64,000 nucleotides of DNA, from assembly GCA_938016265.1 (NCBI GenBank), contig CALLWB010000042.1:1-64000 (forward strand). Direction: 5' to 3'. This document shows positions 6,001-26,540 of this stretch, one piece after another. The first letter of the stretch is position 1. Every line of letters starts with the position of its first letter. Under the pieces are notes generated by a model. That model saw only the letters and a list, made by a program, of their open reading frames with translations. It had not been told where the DNA came from and searched no databases. The stretch is from an uncultured Saprospiraceae bacterium (GTDB lineage Bacteria > Bacteroidota > Bacteroidia > Chitinophagales > Saprospiraceae). A program made the position numbers and the translations under genes.

Positions 6001-7789
6001 TTGTAGGGCCTGACATTCCATTACTCCATGTAAAAGTATATGGCAAGACTCCTCCGTTTCCTGTTGCGGTAATGCTTCCGTCATTTCCAGTAAGACAAGG
6101 GTCCGATTGATCAGGAGAGATAGTAACGTTGACACTATATACTGGTATGGTAACCGTTCCTACCGTTTGGCATCCAAGATTGTCTGTTGCGGTAATGGAA
6201 TAAGTTGTTGTTTGGTTTATTGTCACAATTGGATTGTAGCAATTTGAGCAGGATAACCCTGTAGCTGGAGACCATATATAAGATAAGGTGTCTGACAATT
6301 CAACTAGTGTTTGCTGTCCGATACAAACACCGGAAACGATTGGATTAAGTACGGGTGGTGGATTTTCCAGAACAGATACGTTTGCTGTATCTATTGAACA
6401 GCCACCTGAGTTTAGGTCTTCAACGACCAATGAATAATTTCCTGCGGCGGGAGGGACGTAGGTATTAGAAATACTAACAAGGGCCCCGGTAGCATTTGCT
6501 CCGGTGTACCATGCATATCCATAAGAACCGACATTGGGTGTTACAGAGGACGTCAAAGTTTCTGTCCCTCCTGGGCATATAGTAATCGGATCAGGTATAA
6601 TATCTACAGTAATTGGATCTGCAAAATCAGATACAATAATAGTATAGGTTTCAGTCGTTATACCTGTCAATGGACAGGCATCATCTTGTTCTGTAACGGT
6701 AAAGAAATGAACTCCAATATCAGTAGGCTGTGGATTCCAGCAAAACGTAGCATTTGGAGTTAAGGTATTATTATTTGTTATGGTGAATGTACCAGATGGG
6801 ATACCATTGTTCCAACTCATGTTTACATTGTTGAAATCAGGGTCATAGCCGTCTATGGAAAGGCAGAAGCTTCCCCCAGCACAAACAAAGTAAGTATAAC
6901 TACCAGTGGAAGTCCCATTTTCTATAAACTCAGTAGCAACTGGCGGAGTATTATTACAATTTAGTACTACGAATTGCATGTCCCGGACTGTTTCTCCGAT
7001 TTTCACCCCATTTCTAAATTCTTCTACAAGCACACATAAAACACCAATTTGAGCGATACTTGGAGTAAATGCGATTGCTCCGGTCAATGTATCAAGTGTG
7101 ACCCCTGTAGTAGTGGTAAGAGGGACCGTGCTACTATATCCCGGGTCGTAGTTTACGGTATTGTTGTCCCCTTCAAAGCAATCTACCAGGCTGAACACCA
7201 GCATATCTCCATCGGCATCTGTTACCCCGTGATTGTAAGCTACGGGCTGACCAACACAAACGTATGGGGTAGGGATATTATTAAAGACGGGTGAATTGTT
7301 GCAGGGCAGTTGTGTATTATCAAGGATTGCTTCTATGTACATTTCCTGGTTTCCGGGATCATCCAGCGTGGTAATCGCATTATTCCTACAACATAAGATC
7401 CAACTTATTTCATAATTATTACATGGATTATTAAGTGTTACTACTTCTTCGTAAATAATTTCCTGAACACCTGGTAGGAATCCACCATTACAAGAACTGT
7501 TTGACAATTGGGAGGGGCAAAGAGGAGACACTTCCGTTGGACCAGTAACTAAATCAAGATCAAGGTTGATCGTTGTACCACATCCAGTGATTTGAACGGG
7601 TTGATCGTTAGCGACGTTAATCCCTGCGCAATCTCTATAAAGTTTTAGACGAATTAGGTATTGATTTCCACCGAGACATTCAAAGGTAATATCCGCTCCC
7701 ATGGCATGAGTTGCCTTAGATTCTTTTATACCTAGTATCGAAACCAATAACACGACAAAAAACAAGATTTTAAGTAATCTGTTTTGCAT
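1..7789 (-). CDS. Giant SprB-repeat surface protein, 5' part (runs off left edge)
   Basis: An uninterrupted minus-strand reading frame of about 2,596 codons starts at the ATG at 7789 and is still open at base 1. It begins with a signal peptide (MQNRLLKILFFVVLLVSILG) and then ATHAMGADITFECLGGNQYL, the usual N-terminus of very large Bacteroidota surface proteins with gliding-motility-type C-termini. After about 500 residues with PKD/Ig-like character come about 27 repeats of roughly 76 residues, each with a core like C-x-GG-x-DGSA, GGTPPYSYxWDNG and a final GxxTVTVTDxNGC. This is the SprB repeat. A few repeats (near 745, 2595, 3310 and 4255) are a longer subtype with an extra Gly/Thr-rich insert. 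The protein is expected to be exported by T9SS and to act as a surface adhesin; the sorting domain would lie beyond the window. Family membership is clear; the adhesive role is inferred. Confidence 0.93.
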   Translation of the reverse strand, partial: MQNRLLKILFFVVLLVSILGIKESKATHAMGADITFECLGGNQYLIRLKLYRDCAGINVANDQPVQITGCGTTINLDLDLVTGPTEVSPLCPSQLSNSSCNGGFLPGVQEIIYEEVVTLNNPCNNYEISWILCCRNNAITTLDDPGNQEMYIEAILDNTQLPCNNSPVFNNIPTPYVCVGQPVAYNHGVTDADGDMLVFSLVDCFEGDNNTVNYDPGYSSTVPLTTTTGVTLDTLTGAIAFTPSIAQIGVLCVLVEEFRNGVKIGETVRDMQFVVLNCNNTPPVATEFIENGTSTGSYTYFVCAGGSFCLSIDGYDPDFNNVNMSWNNGIPSGTFTITNNNTLTPNATFCWNPQPTDIGVHFFTVTEQDDACPLTGITTETYTIIVSDFADPITVDIIPDPITICPGGTETLTSSVTPNVGSYGYAWYTGANATGALVSISNTYVPPAAGNYSLVVEDLNSGGCSIDTANVSVLENPPPVLNPIVSGVCIGQQTLVELSDTLSYIWSPATGLSCSNCYNPIVTINQTTTYSITATDNLGCQTVGTVTIPVYSVNVTISPDQSDPCLTGNDGSITATGNGGVLPYTFTWSNGMSGPTISNLPGGTYTVTIEDANGCEATETTTITPPTDLSLASTVGLISCTGAADGSITVIPSGGTPPYLYNWNIGGGGGTINNLGAGNYSVTVTDANNCTEVELFTLVDPLQLGANVTVIQNIQCFGGNDGMASVLATGGNTPYSYMWTNGENTQIASNLPSGPHFVTVTDDSGCEVVNFLLILEPPNLTPLSNSFPVVCFGEANGSIVSTVQGGTQPYSYVWSNGATTQDISGLTAGSYSFTVTDDNGCFKIGTNVVTQPPGLALNPQLLQGVSCPGGSDGSATVNVVGGTPAYSFEWDNGETNATAVNLDAGIHTVSVVDGNGCESVNSFNIPPGSPVFASVSILQNVSCNGGSDGSATANAIGGTPPYSYMWDNGEVTMTAIGLATGSHTVTITDSNGCTAASGTNISQPSALNVFALHVSNPTCFGEVNGAANTFAFGGVPPYQYLWDNGETIANVTNLNIGTHIIVVTDANGCVQTDEVIINVTPPLIPSATTTQDITCFGDDNGSASGSASGGTPPYDYLWDNGSFTPNANLLSPGTHVLTITDRNGCVATTSVIIGEPSMLSTSVTTTQDVDCFGASTGSFDVLVGGGTVGYTLDWLGPVSGSTTLAGAGTTTVTGLIQGTYNIVVTDANNCIATSQVSISQPAEIITAETLNTPAICGGCDGTSAVSVSGGTPPYSFIWSNGATVANPTNLCQGANTVTITDSQGCINVTAVAIGAITPISIVNIDTSDPMCNASLDGSIEVFVSGGFPPYTFDWSGGITDTDAAVTGLAAGSYFVSISSGGGALCLQTALVVLTEPAPLLSTMSVIQIPSCVGESDGSASISASGGTTPYTYTWDNGENTATATGLSAGDHFVTLVDDHNCELISSVNIAAPTQLTLTSNIINEIDCFANLNGDFSILITGGATPYQYSWSGPTSGSGTQANAGVTLISGLGAGSYNISVTDDNGCLATDVVLFVEPAELLTISMVNSDIDCNGNNNGSATTNTSGGTPPYEIEWDNGEQSSTATSLPGGIHIVTITDDNGCVVTSSVTIIEPPLFTNVISNSQDVSCNQGSDGIIMITSTGGTMPYTYQWNNGNTTNSATNLIAGAYFVTINDANGCTEVLTIPINEPLPILATLLNDKLVSCNGESDGAIAGTISDGTPPYSYSWSGPSSGTGTLAAPGLYNLTGLAAGFYTITIVDDNDCELITGIEVLEPSQLMATIPTFGNANCPGSSDGAAIVNATGGTTPYTYLWSEGTTSSSVFNLVAGTYTITTTDASGCTFTNSVTLSEPTITLTTNVIDNVSCNSGSDGSATATISGGEAPYSYIWTSGETLALANNLSAGSNGVTVTDTNGCIEIGLVNITEPVALMDDFTIVSNVSCNGGNDGEASISISGGTIPYSYQWSNGSTTTSALQLLAGPISVTVTDAQNCELVQSGTITEPDELIAAASITNMVSCYQGIDGEGLVSVSGGTMPYTYAWSNGQTDAIATSLGQGTYGVTVIDDQGCVAFSTISLTQPTEIIINATTTDITCFGDDDGSATLSVSDGTPPYTYSWPSGNTGMTENNLSPGSHFATVTDANMCDKSIEVVILEPVVLSIGTVPVEDVSCPGGMDGVVSVNVQGGSPNFDFLWSNGSTHQTVFALAAGTYIVTVSDANNCSQTGSVMVGQPDPLTGITNATTNVSCTGGSDGSATVSATGGTAPYNYVWDTGETTDTATGLAEGTYVITITDANMCRSFLPVIITEPLLLTINSTNSQLVSCAGGADGIVTGIISDGTAPYTYNWSGPVLGSSTQANAGTYSISGLSAGTYDITVVDALSCTATTSVMVTEVPALNAQISASVDATCPGYSDGTATVTGTGGTIPYSYQWSNSQTTDILMNVPAGTYNVTVTDNLGCTTTTGITIGEPVINTSVQLVNNVSCNGGNDGSATATITGGVPPYTYDWTSGEATATATGLVAGSNSYTITDSNGCVETGSIILTEPTQLAGTLTIDINVSCTGGNDGSASVVATEGTPPYNY

Positions 7790-20803: not shown

Positions 20804-20842
20804 AAAAAAACCTGAAGTAGATCGACAAATCCACTTCAGGTT
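20804..20842 (-). terminator. Intrinsic terminator of tRNA-like pair 1
   Basis: Arms AACCTGAAGT (20809-20818) and ACTTCAGGTT (20833-20842) pair over 10 bp, and the minus-strand transcript then runs into about seven U residues (20804-20810). It lies about 17 bp past the 3' end of the last tRNA-like gene of the pair. Its stem sequence is nearly the same as that of the terminator at 21511-21550. Confidence 0.85.
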
Positions 20843-20859
20843 AGATTAATTGTAATTGC

Positions 20860-20999
20860 TGTAAGGGAAGGATTCGAACCTTCAAGGGGCAGTTAGCTAA
20901 CGTTGTTTGAATATTTGAAATATTCAAACGACACCGTTTATTCCAGTATTCCCCACCCTCGAGACAAGAGGGCATGTCTGCCAGTTTCATCACCTTACA
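20860..20999 (-). tRNA. tRNA-like gene 1, class II body, anticodon GUC, giant variable arm
   Basis: Read on the minus strand, the 140-nt RNA folds as a tRNA. Acceptor stem TGTAAGG/CCTTACA; D-stem ATG/CAT with a Leu/Ser-like D-loop (AAACTGGCAGA); anticodon stem CCCTC/GAGGG with the seven-base loop TTGTCTC; T-stem GAAGG/CCTTC with loop TTCGAAT. The anticodon GUC (20963-20965) would read Asp codons, but the body is class II and base 37 is U rather than a purine. The variable region is 72 nt, far beyond the 10-20 nt normal for class II. It has a GGGG/CCCC base, a conserved GGAATAAA and a 25-nt perfect palindrome (20905-20929). The base after the acceptor is G; CCA is not encoded. Confidence 0.8.
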
Positions 21000-21037
21000 T
21001 TGTTTAATCCAATTCATTAATTGGATATACCGTTCGC

Positions 21038-21177
21038 TGTTAGGGAAGGATTCGAACCTCCAAGGGGTAGTTAGCTAACGTTGTTTGAATATTTCAAATA
21101 TTCAAACGACACAGTTTATTCCGATACTCCCCACCCTCGAGACAAGAGGGCGTGTCTGCCAATTTCACCACCTAACA
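21038..21177 (-). tRNA. tRNA-like gene 2, class II body, anticodon GUC, giant variable arm
   Basis: This 140-nt minus-strand copy has acceptor stem TGTTAGG/CCTAACA, D-stem GTG/CAC with D-loop AAATTGGCAGA, the same anticodon arm (anticodon at 21141-21143) and T-stem GGAGG/CCTTC with loop TTCGAAT. Compared with gene 1, acceptor pair 4 changes from A-T to T-A and D-stem pair 10-25 from A-T to G-C. Both partners change, which argues for a selected RNA rather than decay. The 72-nt variable region starts GGGGAGT and ends ACTACCCC, with GGAATAAA and a 25-nt palindrome at 21083-21107. It is transcribed before gene 1, with 38 bp between them containing a short hairpin (ATCCAATT/AATTGGAT). Confidence 0.8.
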
Positions 21178-21192
21178 TTATTTTTCAATTGT

Positions 21193-21240
21193 TATTGAAG
21201 TCACTTCCTTTTTAGCGACATGTCAAATTTACAACAAAAT
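21193..21240 (-). promoter_or_regulatory. Conserved upstream block of tRNA-like pair 1
   Basis: These 48 bp are identical at 46 positions to 21967-22014, the region upstream of the other pair, while the flanks are less alike. On the minus strand it contains TTGACA (21221-21226), followed after 17 bp by TGACTT, a possible but weak -10. GTCGCT and AGTGAC form an imperfect inverted repeat around that spacer. A promoter or operator driving the pair is the simplest reading. Confidence 0.6.
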
Positions 21241-21423
21241 GCTTCGTAAATGCAAATTTATTAATGAATTAAATAAATTATTACGAAATCGTTAATTAAT
21301 CTAGCTTATTTGTAAAATATGTCAAAATCTGGCTACTTGGCTGCGCGTAGTTTATGAAATCAGAAATTGGGATAATTAATAATTGTGTTTTTTATGAGGA
21401 TCGCTTGGAAAAATTTGGCGAAA

Positions 21424-21452
21424 GCCTGCCCTCCGAAGCACAGCAGGCAGGC
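21424..21452. repeat. GC-rich hairpin between the two tRNA-like cassettes
   Basis: GCCTGCC (21424-21430) and GGCAGGC (21446-21452) can pair around a 15-nt loop in otherwise AT-rich DNA. It may be a dispersed REP-like element. No function can be assigned. The remainder of 21241-21510 shows nothing else. Confidence 0.5.
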
Positions 21453-21510
21453 CAACTTGGTAACAACACATTTATGAATGCGCTAAAACAATTTCCGCCG
21501 TTACGGTTCC

Positions 21511-21550
21511 AAAAAAAAACCTGAAGTAGATCCTCTATCTACTTCAGGTT
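21511..21550 (-). terminator. Intrinsic terminator of tRNA-like pair 2
   Basis: A perfect 14-bp stem (21518-21531 with 21537-21550, arm AACCTGAAGTAGAT) and a 5-nt loop are followed on the minus strand by nine U residues. It sits 18 bp past the 3' end of tRNA-like gene 3. Confidence 0.9.
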
Positions 21551-21568
21551 AAACAATTTAACTTATGC

Positions 21569-21713
21569 TGTAAGGGAAGGATTCGAACCTTCAAAAGGCG
21601 GTTAGTTATAGTACAGGTGTGCACGCGGTGGTCAACCCCTATTATACTACATTTATTCCGTGATCCCTACCCCCGAGACAAGAGGGCATGTCTGCCAGTT
21701 TCATCACCTTACA
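21569..21713 (-). tRNA. tRNA-like gene 3, class II body, GUC anticodon, divergent variable arm
   Basis: This 145-nt copy has the same acceptor, D-arm and T-arm as gene 1 (TGTAAGG/CCTTACA, ATG/CAT, GAAGG/CCTTC). The anticodon stem is CCCTC/GGGGG with a tolerated T-G pair; the loop is again TTGTCTC with GUC at 21677-21679. The variable region is about 77 nt. It keeps the GGAATAAA box but carries a different, more GC-rich hairpin (around TAGTA and TACTA) instead of the GTTTGAATATTT palindrome of the other copies. So tRNA body and box are constant while the hairpin sequence is free to change. Confidence 0.78.
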
Positions 21714-21806
21714 ATGTGCGCCTTGCGGCTGAGCCAATGCGTTTATTGGCTTTACTTATCTTTGTAGTTATACAGGTTTACAATTCGTGAATTGTATCTA
21801 CCTTGC

Positions 21807-21946
21807 TGTTAGGGAAGGAATCGAACCTCCAAAGGGCAGTTAGCTAACGTTGTTTGAATATTTGAAATATTCAAACGACACAGTTTATTCCGGTACTCCC
21901 TACCCTCGAGACAAGAGGGCGTGTCTGCCAATTTCACCACCTAACA
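21807..21946 (-). tRNA. tRNA-like gene 4, class II body, anticodon GUC, giant variable arm
   Basis: This 140-nt copy matches gene 2 in acceptor (TGTTAGG/CCTAACA) and D-arm (GTG/CAC). The T-loop is TTCGATT and the anticodon GUC is at 21910-21912. The base of the variable arm is TAGGG with CCCTTT, where gene 2 has TGGGG with CCCCTT: a G-C to A-T double change that supports the variable-arm stem. The 25-nt palindrome lies at 21852-21876. It is the promoter-proximal gene of the second pair; 93 bp with two small hairpins separate it from gene 3. Confidence 0.8.
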
Positions 21947-21966: not shown

Positions 21967-22014
21967 TATTGAAGTCACTTTCTTTATAGCGACATGTCAA
22001 ATTTACAACAAAAT
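21967..22014 (-). promoter_or_regulatory. Conserved upstream block of tRNA-like pair 2
   Basis: This is the second copy of the 48-bp block described at 21193-21240, with two differences. TTGACA lies at 21995-22000 on the minus strand, about 48 nt before the 5' end of the first tRNA-like gene of this pair, a similar distance to that in the other cassette. Confidence 0.6.
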
Positions 22015-22186
22015 CTTTCTAAATTGCAAATTTAGCAATGAATAAAATAAAATTTTACAAAAATGATAATTATATCAGCAAAAATCAATGATTATTAAAA
22101 TCTAAGGGTCAATTTACCTTGATAATTGCGAATAAACCAATTGTCATTTTTATAATGTAGAATGATTCAACTTACTTTTAGAAATA

Positions 22187-25250: not shown

Positions 25251-26540
25251 CTAGGTTTTAAACGGATGGCGCGGGGTCCACTCTTCTTCGTTGTTGAGGT
25301 AGTCGAATACGTTTTTCACAAACTTATTATGGATCGAACTTTTGTGCTTTAGATAGCAGTACATCTCCTTTGCTTCTGCTCCTACCGAACTCTTTATTTC
25401 AAGAGCGGTTCTTGCGAAAACTACTTTCTTGTACTGTTTTTCAATCCCATATCTAATGATTTCGAATAGAATGTTGTGATAAATTTTGTGCGACCGATTT
25501 AGTAGTGGATCGAACCCTAAAAAATGGGCTTCTATCTCCGCTCCATCATCGATAGTGGTGTGAAAAGCAACCAGTTTTTCTTCCAAAAAATGACCATACA
25601 ACCGATAGTTGTCTCCTAGATTTTCTTTCAATCCAGTGAAGTAGGATTCATGTAAGGTAACGGCATTAAACCCTGAGTTTTTGGCAATATTTGTATAGAG
25701 GTCGTAAATTTCTTTTTCGTAAGCCTTGATTTCTTCCAGAGAAAATTCTCTTTGCACAATAGACTTTGCTTTTTTGATGACGCTTTTTGCTTTCACTCTA
25801 TATTTAGAGCTCATGTCTGCCAGATAATCGGCAAACGTCCCCCACCCTTCTCTGACATCCAGTACCATATTAGGTTGAACGGTAAATTGGTTAAAGCCAT
25901 TGCTGTTTAATATGGGAGCGATCTCTTCTTTAGTAGAATCGTAAAAATCTTTGTAGAAGGTAAACGAAATATTTTCTCCATTTTTGGACAATTGATTCCT
26001 TGCTACCTCAATACCTTCCAGCAATATTTTCATGGCGGAGGATGAATTGGCGATAGCTGGATCAAAATAAAATCCGTGTTCTCCAGTCAGCAACACATTA
26101 CCACAAAGTAGGACTGTAAAGTCAACCCGTTTTGCAAAGGATTTTTTTAAGGAACGCCCGATGGCTTTAAAAACGCATCTAGGATCGACCACTTCCTCAC
26201 TAAGATTGTTAATGCTGCTATTTGCATTGAAATGGAGAATCTGACAAACGGCAACGCCTATAAGTTGTTCATTTAAAGAAAACCCTAAATAGCAAAAACG
26301 CATTCCTTTTGGTGGATTTTGCTCTAGCGAACGGAGAAATGGAGTTCTTAGAAACCGATTACCCTCAGGTACTAATTCATCCCAGTCGTCGGCTACTTGA
26401 CGAATAGAATCATACAATTTAAAATTAAGCAGTTCTGGACTTTGTTTATTGTCCGTTGCTCTTTTCCCATTGACCCCATTTGCCGTCAGCAATTGAATGG
26501 ATTTGGAAACGTCAGTTAATGTAAAATTGTAAATCATCAA
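25251..26540 (-). CDS. FemAB/GNAT-fold acyltransferase-like protein
   Basis: This is a 429-residue cytoplasmic protein. Two halves resemble GNAT folds, as in FemAB-like and Acetyltransf_6 families: residues about 60-130 (LRTPFLRSLEQNPP, LIGVAVCQIL) and about 230-400 (DMSSKYRVKAKSVIKKAKSI, NYRLYGHFLEEKLVAFHTTI, IEAHFLGFDPLLNRSHKIYH, ILFEIIRYGIEKQYKKVVFA). The SSKYRxKxK and HF-G-D pieces are typical of the second domain. Relatives transfer aminoacyl groups from tRNA or acyl groups from CoA. The substrate here cannot be deduced. It is a single gene with about 240 bp of AT-rich DNA upstream and no partner. Confidence 0.75.
   Translation of the reverse strand: MMIYNFTLTDVSKSIQLLTANGVNGKRATDNKQSPELLNFKLYDSIRQVADDWDELVPEGNRFLRTPFLRSLEQNPPKGMRFCYLGFSLNEQLIGVAVCQILHFNANSSINNLSEEVVDPRCVFKAIGRSLKKSFAKRVDFTVLLCGNVLLTGEHGFYFDPAIANSSSAMKILLEGIEVARNQLSKNGENISFTFYKDFYDSTKEEIAPILNSNGFNQFTVQPNMVLDVREGWGTFADYLADMSSKYRVKAKSVIKKAKSIVQREFSLEEIKAYEKEIYDLYTNIAKNSGFNAVTLHESYFTGLKENLGDNYRLYGHFLEEKLVAFHTTIDDGAEIEAHFLGFDPLLNRSHKIYHNILFEIIRYGIEKQYKKVVFARTALEIKSSVGAEAKEMYCYLKHKSSIHNKFVKNVFDYLNNEEEWTPRHPFKT

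Follow-up and report, generated by a model that had tools for sequence, protein, structure and literature searches.

Long-armed tRNA-like RNAs with an Asp anticodon in Bacteroidota and their viruses: a candidate non-decoding carrier for asparagine synthesis

Four tRNA-like RNA genes with a GUC anticodon and a greatly extended variable arm lie within positions 1 to 64,000 of contig CALLWB010000042.1 from an uncultured Saprospiraceae bacterium (assembly GCA_938016265.1; this whole stretch is called the window, and its genome G000). The four genes were confirmed as real, and they belong to a widespread RNA family whose window copies went unreported by Rfam and ARAGORN. Family members carry a U1–A72 pair together with Asp-type identity elements, usually stand beside a gene for an AsnC-like regulator, and co-occur with GatB. 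The sequence evidence favours, with considerable room for doubt, a reading in which the RNA would be a non-decoding tRNA serving asparagine synthesis: AspRS would load it with aspartate, GatCAB would amidate that aspartate, and control would be of AsnC type. The chances are about even that it would represent a new functional class, namely a tRNA withdrawn from the genetic code that serves as a regulated carrier for making free asparagine in place of asparagine synthetase and, in phages, as an auxiliary metabolic RNA. In the literature searched, whose coverage mostly excluded subscription journals and preprints, no description of such an RNA was found.

All four window RNAs have a complete cloverleaf, with a 7-bp acceptor stem (UGU.../...ACA), a Leu-like D stem of 3 bp, a 5-bp anticodon stem and a 5-bp T stem. 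The anticodon loop reads UUGUCUC, giving U33, the anticodon GUC, U37 and C38, and the anticodon stem is separated from the T stem by 72–77 nucleotides instead of the short variable region of class I tRNAs. The original prediction, made from the letters of the window, had described this cloverleaf with GUC, U37, G73 and a 72–77-nucleotide arm, and the sequences of all four copies agree with it; it had also placed the genes in two cassettes, each with a promoter-like block and a terminator, as the positions of the promoter patterns and hairpins confirm (Table 1). The encoded 3' end is G73–C74. Most of the ordinary tRNA genes listed from the window genome also encode N73–C74 with no further C-A, a few encoding CCA, so that the GC end of the RNA is normal there and suggests normal CCA completion. 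ARAGORN returned no tRNAs from the 64-kb window, and Rfam gave no match at gathering level, RF00023 (tmRNA) included; sub-threshold Rfam matches in the window were weak, the best tRNA-like one being tRNA-Sec (E 0.3). With single-strand folding z-scores of −2.8, −2.1, +0.3 and −2.5 for the four RNAs, folding energy alone is no proof of them. Class I tRNA-Asp(GTC) genes of ordinary type are present in the window genome, a point that the original prediction had proposed to check, and their existence rules out that the long arm is a spliced insert of a sole tRNA-Asp.

To define the family, a match of at least 80 bits to a covariance model, R1, was taken as membership. Members occur in 69 of the 149 genomes of an order sample and in 40 of the 395 genomes of a phylum sample; the window genome has four, all inside the window. 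A search of Bacteroidota genomes with a covariance model had been suggested with the original prediction, and the many relatives found mean that the RNAs are not without homologues. Raw R1 tallies of 117 (order) and 324 (phylum) include shorter, lower-scoring matches. Among 20 such matches checked (50–67 bits), 19 were ordinary tRNA-Leu of 83–87 nucleotides and one was a short relative, described below; long-armed host members all scored at least 88 bits. The cross-matches to tRNA-Leu suggest that the RNA was derived from tRNA-Leu. An exact 23-mer covering the D arm and anticodon arm matched at least 119 stretches of genome contigs, and the 80 titles listed were mostly from Chitinophagaceae, other Chitinophagales, Saprospiraceae and Lewinellaceae, a few carrying other labels. 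In an alignment of 43 sequences, four of them from the window, two-sided changes occur in 15 of 31 pairs and 96.3% of pair cells are paired, which none of 500 shuffles reached; slid structures fall to 50–64% of cells paired. The seven acceptor base pairs are paired in 99.7% of the alignment cells and the five of the T stem in 100%; all seven acceptor pairs were present in 128 pattern matches, 133 of 137 having been parsed.

Family members are mostly 110–210 nucleotides long, and the variable arm spans 40–133 nucleotides (median 98, 132 pattern copies). A second helix may be present in the arm, as may a hairpin containing GGGUNGACCAC, which is conserved in many host and viral copies; the GGGGTTGACCAC hairpin motif in copy 3 of the window is common to many host and viral relatives. 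Several lineages with forms of 110–130 nucleotides lack the arm hairpin and keep GUC, and a pairing of the GUC loop with GAC in the arm hairpin was rejected for that reason. In some copies a hairpin-like insert is added to the D loop beside the GG pair (L014, L021, L116 and L117, and the viral L318, L346 and L351). Of 108 non-redundant host loci, 48 have a TAnnTTTG box in the 70 nucleotides upstream (6.2 on average and at most 14 in shuffles); a T-run follows within 60 nucleotides downstream in 106 of 132 cases. The short relative comes from genome G215 (L588:101–177, minus strand; G215:C23:55337–55413); it is 77 nucleotides long, has no long arm and scores 66.6 bits. Its acceptor begins with UGU, its D arm is Leu-like, it has U1–A72, G73–C74 and the loop CUAUCUC, and its anticodon AUC is also an Asp anticodon, with U35, C36 and C38 kept; ARAGORN calls it tRNA-Asp. 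Being armless yet retaining U1–A72, G73–C74, U35–C36 and C38, this relative indicates that the arm is dispensable whereas these elements stay. Its score also means that the 80-bit limit misses armless forms, and armless members may be common and overlooked at that limit.

The identity of the amino acid was considered from base counts in 95 model-found host copies outside the window, taken from 63 other loci with one spurious row dropped. G34 was present in 92, U35 in 95, C36 in 95 and C38 in 94. R1 was trained on TTGTCTC sequences, so these host loop counts lean that way; a viral search with the whole loop left free does not, and GUC was present in 30 of the 30 viral loci first found with it (the free-loop pattern matched at least 111 stretches, of which 80 were listed). 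Excerpts of PMC9976931 give G73, G10, G34, U35, C36 and C38 as bacterial Asp determinants, A73 as required for Leu identity, and C72 plus C11–G24 as required for Ser. The main AspRS determinants G34, U35, C36, C38 and G73 are present in the RNA family, which carries G73 where Leu needs A73, and A72 with U11–A24 where Ser needs C72 with C11–G24. With the Asp determinants kept and the Leu and Ser elements missing, AspRS is the likely charging enzyme, and charging with Leu or Ser is improbable; these bases do not support the earlier suggestion that SerRS or LeuRS charges the RNA and Asp codons are thereby misread.

Features expected for decoding, U33 together with a purine at 37, are not combined in the window RNAs, which have U33 but U37, and a purine at 37 is found in only 7 of the 95 host copies (U in 78, C in 10, G in 7, never A; pyrimidine in 88). 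U33 itself is present in 80 and replaced in 15. The role outside translation that the original prediction had raised is supported by these counts. Three long-armed host copies have a different anticodon, CUC (L225, L235) or UUC (L226), each a Glu anticodon, and two of the three genomes show an AsnC-like neighbour (L267, L282); these members may feed glutamine rather than asparagine synthesis. Asp and Glu are the two amino acids amidated by GatCAB, and the anticodons of the family, Asp and rarely Glu, match the two.

All 99 host copies, among them the four of the window, have U1–A72 with G73–C74. Among 95 whole viral copies, 93 have U1–A72 and the other two A1–U72; G73–C74 follows. Bacterial GatCAB recognises U1–A72, and G1–C72 is an antideterminant (excerpts of PMC4206432 and PMC9976931). 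Three of three distinct tRNA(Asp) and two of two distinct tRNA(Asn) of the window genome have G1–C72, as read from 54 Rfam matches, 150 of 431 initial candidates having been scored. Because the RNA has the U1–A72 pair, which the tRNA(Asp) found and, in the window genome, also the tRNA(Asn) found do not have, GatCAB would be expected to amidate it.

A divergent upstream gene for a regulator of 154–170 amino acids was found in 106 of 119 pattern loci and in 22 of 32 diverse loci. Seven of the remaining pattern loci lie within 600 nucleotides of an edge and six have no AsnC-like gene, four of these six, by the titles seen, being from Saprospiraceae or Lewinellaceae. Two of the neighbour proteins were scanned; the nearest NCBIfam model was AsnC (E 1e-49), and PF13404 and PF01037, the AsnC-type helix-turn-helix and ligand domains, were above cut-off in both. 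The nearest solved structure was E. coli AsnC (2cg4, 1e-32; next 6e-19). At 168 and 157 bits the neighbours stay below the AsnC equivalog cut-off of 227 bits and are AsnC-like, not certified orthologues. In E. coli, asnC faces asnA and controls asnA transcription. Of the 119 pattern loci, 42 have a downstream gene that by eye is TrmB. The idea of a transferase partner encoded next to the RNA was rejected, as the recurrent clusters listed comprised the AsnC-like gene, shared between lineages, and the TrmB-like gene, and no transferase; a FemAB-like gene in the window (25251–26540) was below Pfam cut-offs and absent from the recurrent clusters listed. The neighbours of gatB were an AlaS-like gene and others, and within the gatB stretches read the RNA was present only in G148, about 4.5 kb off.

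Before any co-occurrence was counted in the 149 order-sample genomes, the asparagine hypothesis was fixed together with two predictions, that GatCAB is present and that AsnA and AsnB are absent. GatCAB presence was judged by GatB, which was counted in 111 genomes above cut-off and in three with sizeable pieces (all RNA-negative), tiny pieces in G106 and G112 being scored as absent; GlnRS was counted in 85 genomes above cut-off and in G128, which has part of it. The GatCAB prediction, judged in this way, was borne out: GatB was present in 66 of 69 RNA-positive versus 48 of 80 RNA-negative genomes. Among genomes with GlnRS the counts were 49 of 51 versus 10 of 35, and in those also at least 90% complete (n = 68) they were 46 of 46 versus 4 of 22 (Fisher p 6e-13, uncorrected for relatedness). 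Genomes without GlnRS showed no association (17 of 18 versus 38 of 45); without GlnRS, GatCAB is required for Gln-tRNA. Among GlnRS-bearing genomes of single families, GatB was present in 14 of 14 RNA-positive versus none of five RNA-negative genomes in f1, and in 14 of 14 versus one of three in f20, so that RNA and GatB are lost together in f1 and for the most part in f20. AsnRS was above cut-off in 139 of the 149 genomes and AsnA in 10, four RNA-positive and six RNA-negative. Neither AsnA nor AsnB was above cut-off in 26 genomes, 14 of them RNA-positive (the window genome and 13 others); the window genome itself has GatB, GlnRS and AsnRS, no AsnA match and no AsnB above cut-off. Two genomes at least 90% complete, G034 and G050, had no RNA of at least 80 bits and no GatB, AsnA or AsnB above cut-off, and are possible asparagine auxotrophs.

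We infer from these sequences a pathway in which the RNA would be a dedicated tRNA paralogue with no decoding role. AspRS would load it with aspartate by way of the Asp anticodon loop and G73, GatCAB would convert the RNA-bound aspartate to asparagine, and the asparagine would be freed as an amino acid, or handed on, for use by AsnRS, so that the RNA, AspRS and GatCAB would jointly replace asparagine synthetase. In most lineages the adjacent AsnC-type regulator would set transcription of the RNA, as it does for asnA in E. coli. Asparagine would be kept off Asp codons by the pyrimidine at 37, by the frequent loss of U33 and by the great length of the arm, and the phage copies would probably sustain the asparagine step during infection.

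Several observations weigh against this pathway. In the 149 genomes, the predicted absence of AsnA and AsnB from RNA-positive genomes failed in its stated form: TIGR01536, the AsnB model, was above cut-off in 55 of 69 RNA-positive versus 68 of 80 RNA-negative genomes (p 0.52). Twenty TIGR01536 proteins, from genomes of both kinds, had 24–32% identity, over the best stretch, to a 434-amino-acid piece of E. coli AsnB, and many of these proteins may be something other than AsnB. The GatB association has exceptions in both directions. In GlnRS-bearing genomes of family f12, GatB is present in seven of eight RNA-positive versus seven of seven RNA-negative genomes; four RNA-negative genomes with GlnRS, at least 90% complete, retain GatB (G011, G076, G094 and G140), and 203 kb of G140 held no RNA on inspection. 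RNA-negative here denotes no match of at least 80 bits among shortlisted candidates, and armless relatives fall below that limit. Conversely, G092, G112 and G115 have the RNA and no usable GatB; two of them are less than 90% complete, and as G115 is also without GlnRS above cut-off, the absence of GatB there is probably a search miss. Of 96 host rows counted for base 10 of the RNA, 66 have A and 17 have G, so that the G10 determinant is commonly missing, and the 1–72 pair of the RNA is not the G–C of tRNA(Asp). The D loop has no U at 20a, the D-loop antideterminant for GatCAB named in excerpts of PMC9976931, but it has Leu-like extra bases after G19. The window copies are not adjoined by an AsnC gene, the nearest protein of this kind in the genome, 62% identical, being encoded at G000:C71, and the 5 kb or so around the short G215 relative hold no AsnC-like gene either.

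Other explanations share part of this evidence. The RNA might be charged with Asp, perhaps amidated, and its aminoacyl group passed by a transferase to a non-ribosomal acceptor such as a lipid, a peptide, the cell wall or a protein end; the identity elements and non-decoding features would fit this equally, and tRNA paralogues used outside the ribosome, such as the cell-wall tRNA-Gly of Staphylococcus, are known elsewhere. We consider it unlikely, since the cross-lineage neighbour among the clusters listed is AsnC-like and no transferase, the GatB co-occurrence and AsnC linkage indicate asparagine metabolism, and the RNA is carried by viruses of differing gene context, which would be unexpected for a role in the host wall. 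A little less probable still is a regulatory mimic that would bind AspRS or GatCAB and sense or tune the asparagine supply, with charging incidental and the arm with its GGGUNGACCAC hairpin as the effector. The strong conservation of that hairpin in many host and viral copies, the AsnC-like neighbour and a yeast precedent, in which AspRS is bound by an mRNA anticodon mimic (excerpts of PMC9976931), are in its favour; however, hairpin-less lineages and the armless G215 relative keep U35–C36–C38, U1–A72 and G73–C74, and a pure mimic would not need a chargeable 3' end.

It is also conceivable, though improbable, that genomes with GlnRS and AsnRS keep GatCAB for the classical route, in which tRNA(Asn) is aspartylated by a non-discriminating AspRS, and that the RNA does something unrelated. 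This route has been proposed for bacteria that combine AsnRS and GlnRS with GatCAB, including some Bacteroidetes; in the survey made there, all of these bacteria had a U1–A72 tRNA(Asn) (excerpts of PMC4206432). In the genomes read, however, tRNA(Asn) has G1–C72 (two of two distinct in the window genome, one in G140), and the route leaves unexplained why GatB follows the RNA in the near-complete GlnRS-bearing genomes. Least probable is a working elongator that reads Asp codons and inserts Asp, Asn, Ser or Leu. A complete cloverleaf with GUC, and U33 in most host copies, are what such a tRNA would have, whereas the pyrimidine 37, the replaced U33 in 15 of 95, the D-loop hairpin inserts of some copies, the length of the arm, and the presence of an ordinary tRNA-Asp both in the host and on 10 of the 97 viral stretches all speak against it.

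If the asparagine pathway is correct, the RNA would be a tRNA whose task is the making of an amino acid and not decoding. It would explain why GatCAB is kept in many Bacteroidota that have both AsnRS and GlnRS, a question raised in excerpts of PMC4206432, would provide an asparagine source for genomes without a detected AsnA or AsnB, the window genome included, and would be a possible metabolic RNA in phages.

Viral copies were found on 97 of the IMG/VR contigs examined, 95 of the copies being whole. The 97 viral stretches include 57 with at least one ordinary tRNA and 25 with at least five species; tRNA-Asp(GTC) is present in 10. A recurrent downstream gene is present in 36 viral loci, and the one example scanned matched a terminase large subunit (E 3.5e-6); portal and PhoH matches support a phage origin of the viral contigs. 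A blastn search of named phages with two viral copies gave no match. A second kind of viral RNA has tRNA-Leu-like ends (acceptor AGTCAGG, D arm and T arm) around unrelated inserts of 50–80 nucleotides and no evident anticodon arm, and resembles a tRNA scaffold carrying variable cargo. It was found in at least 120 IMG/VR stretches, with 84 exact-end copies and 66 distinct inserts, up to four per locus when the pattern was loosened (L496), and weak Rfam tRNA scores in some. One viral contig has a tmRNA gene (L518:1051–1405) near a cargo-type RNA. On the window contig itself, ten ARAGORN tRNA genes within about 2 kb (G000:C42:116812–118768) are unlike the genome's other tRNAs and resemble a phage tRNA array.

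The features of the window and the second viral RNA kind are collected in Table 1. A third match to the promoter-like TTG...TAAATTTG pattern, which is of Bacteroidota type, lies at 22027–22060.

Table 1. Features of the two RNA cassettes (window positions) and of the second viral RNA kind (positions in the loci named)
Feature	Position or length	Strand	Remark
RNA copy 1	20858..20999	minus	cassette A, second RNA; 129.8 bits with covariance model
RNA copy 1 variable arm	72 nt		contains AU-rich hairpin
RNA copy 2	21036..21177	minus	cassette A, first RNA; 124.7 bits with covariance model
RNA copy 3	21567..21713	minus	cassette B, second RNA; 140.3 bits with covariance model
RNA copy 4	21805..21946	minus	cassette B, first RNA; 122.9 bits with covariance model
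Promoter-like element, cassette A, TTG-N-TAAATTTG	21224..21255	minus	pattern match only
Promoter-like element, cassette B, TTG-N-TAAATTTG	21998..22029	minus	pattern match only
Terminator-like hairpin (intrinsic), 3' of cassette A	20804..20840	minus	hairpin then T-run
Terminator-like hairpin (intrinsic), 3' of cassette B	21511..21549	minus	hairpin then T-run
Second viral RNA kind	L300:6142-6262, 6477-6616; L344:5064-5185; L454-L533	L300, L344 minus	tRNA-Leu-like ends around variable inserts

Among known systems, the proposed pathway is closest to tRNA-dependent Asn synthesis, in which a non-discriminating AspRS, GatCAB and tRNA(Asn) act together in Deinococcus, Thermus, Bdellovibrio and Staphylococcus, and which occurs in AsnRS-bearing cells, some of them without AsnA or AsnB (excerpts of PMC4206432). 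As in that route, aspartate would be loaded on a U1–A72 RNA and amidated by GatCAB; unlike it, the pathway proposed here would use as carrier not tRNA(Asn) but an RNA of its own that does not decode and that has an Asp anticodon, a long arm and usually an AsnC-type neighbour, and since the carrier has the Asp anticodon a discriminating AspRS would suffice. The RNA resembles tRNA(Asp) in GUC, C38, G73–C74 and the GG and TTCGA loops, and differs from it in the class II body, the long arm, U1–A72 in place of G1–C72, the pyrimidine 37, the 3-bp D stem and, in some copies, a base other than U at position 33. With tRNA(Leu) it shares the D arm and the class II body, but it has G73 and not A73, and the anticodon arm, the arm length and the start of the acceptor differ. 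Allo-tRNA, tRNA-Sec and selC* tRNAs are likewise unusual tRNAs with a long variable arm (excerpts of PMC7609411); in the RNA, however, the acceptor and T stems are 7/5 and not lengthened (8/5, 8/4 or 9/3), the arm is several times longer, and the loop is of Asp type. An identity as tRNA-Sec or allo-tRNA was rejected on the 7/5 acceptor branch and an Rfam E of 0.3 at best. The T4 stable RNAs C and D and tmRNA are non-decoding or tRNA-like RNAs in phage tRNA clusters, and in this the RNA is similar to them. A substitute for tmRNA it is not, as a separate tmRNA is above cut-off in 129 of the 149 order-sample genomes, G000 included. Finally, the arrangement recalls the asnC–asnA pair of E. coli, in that an AsnC-type regulator is divergent from a putative asparagine-making gene, with the difference that an RNA gene stands in the place of the enzyme gene.

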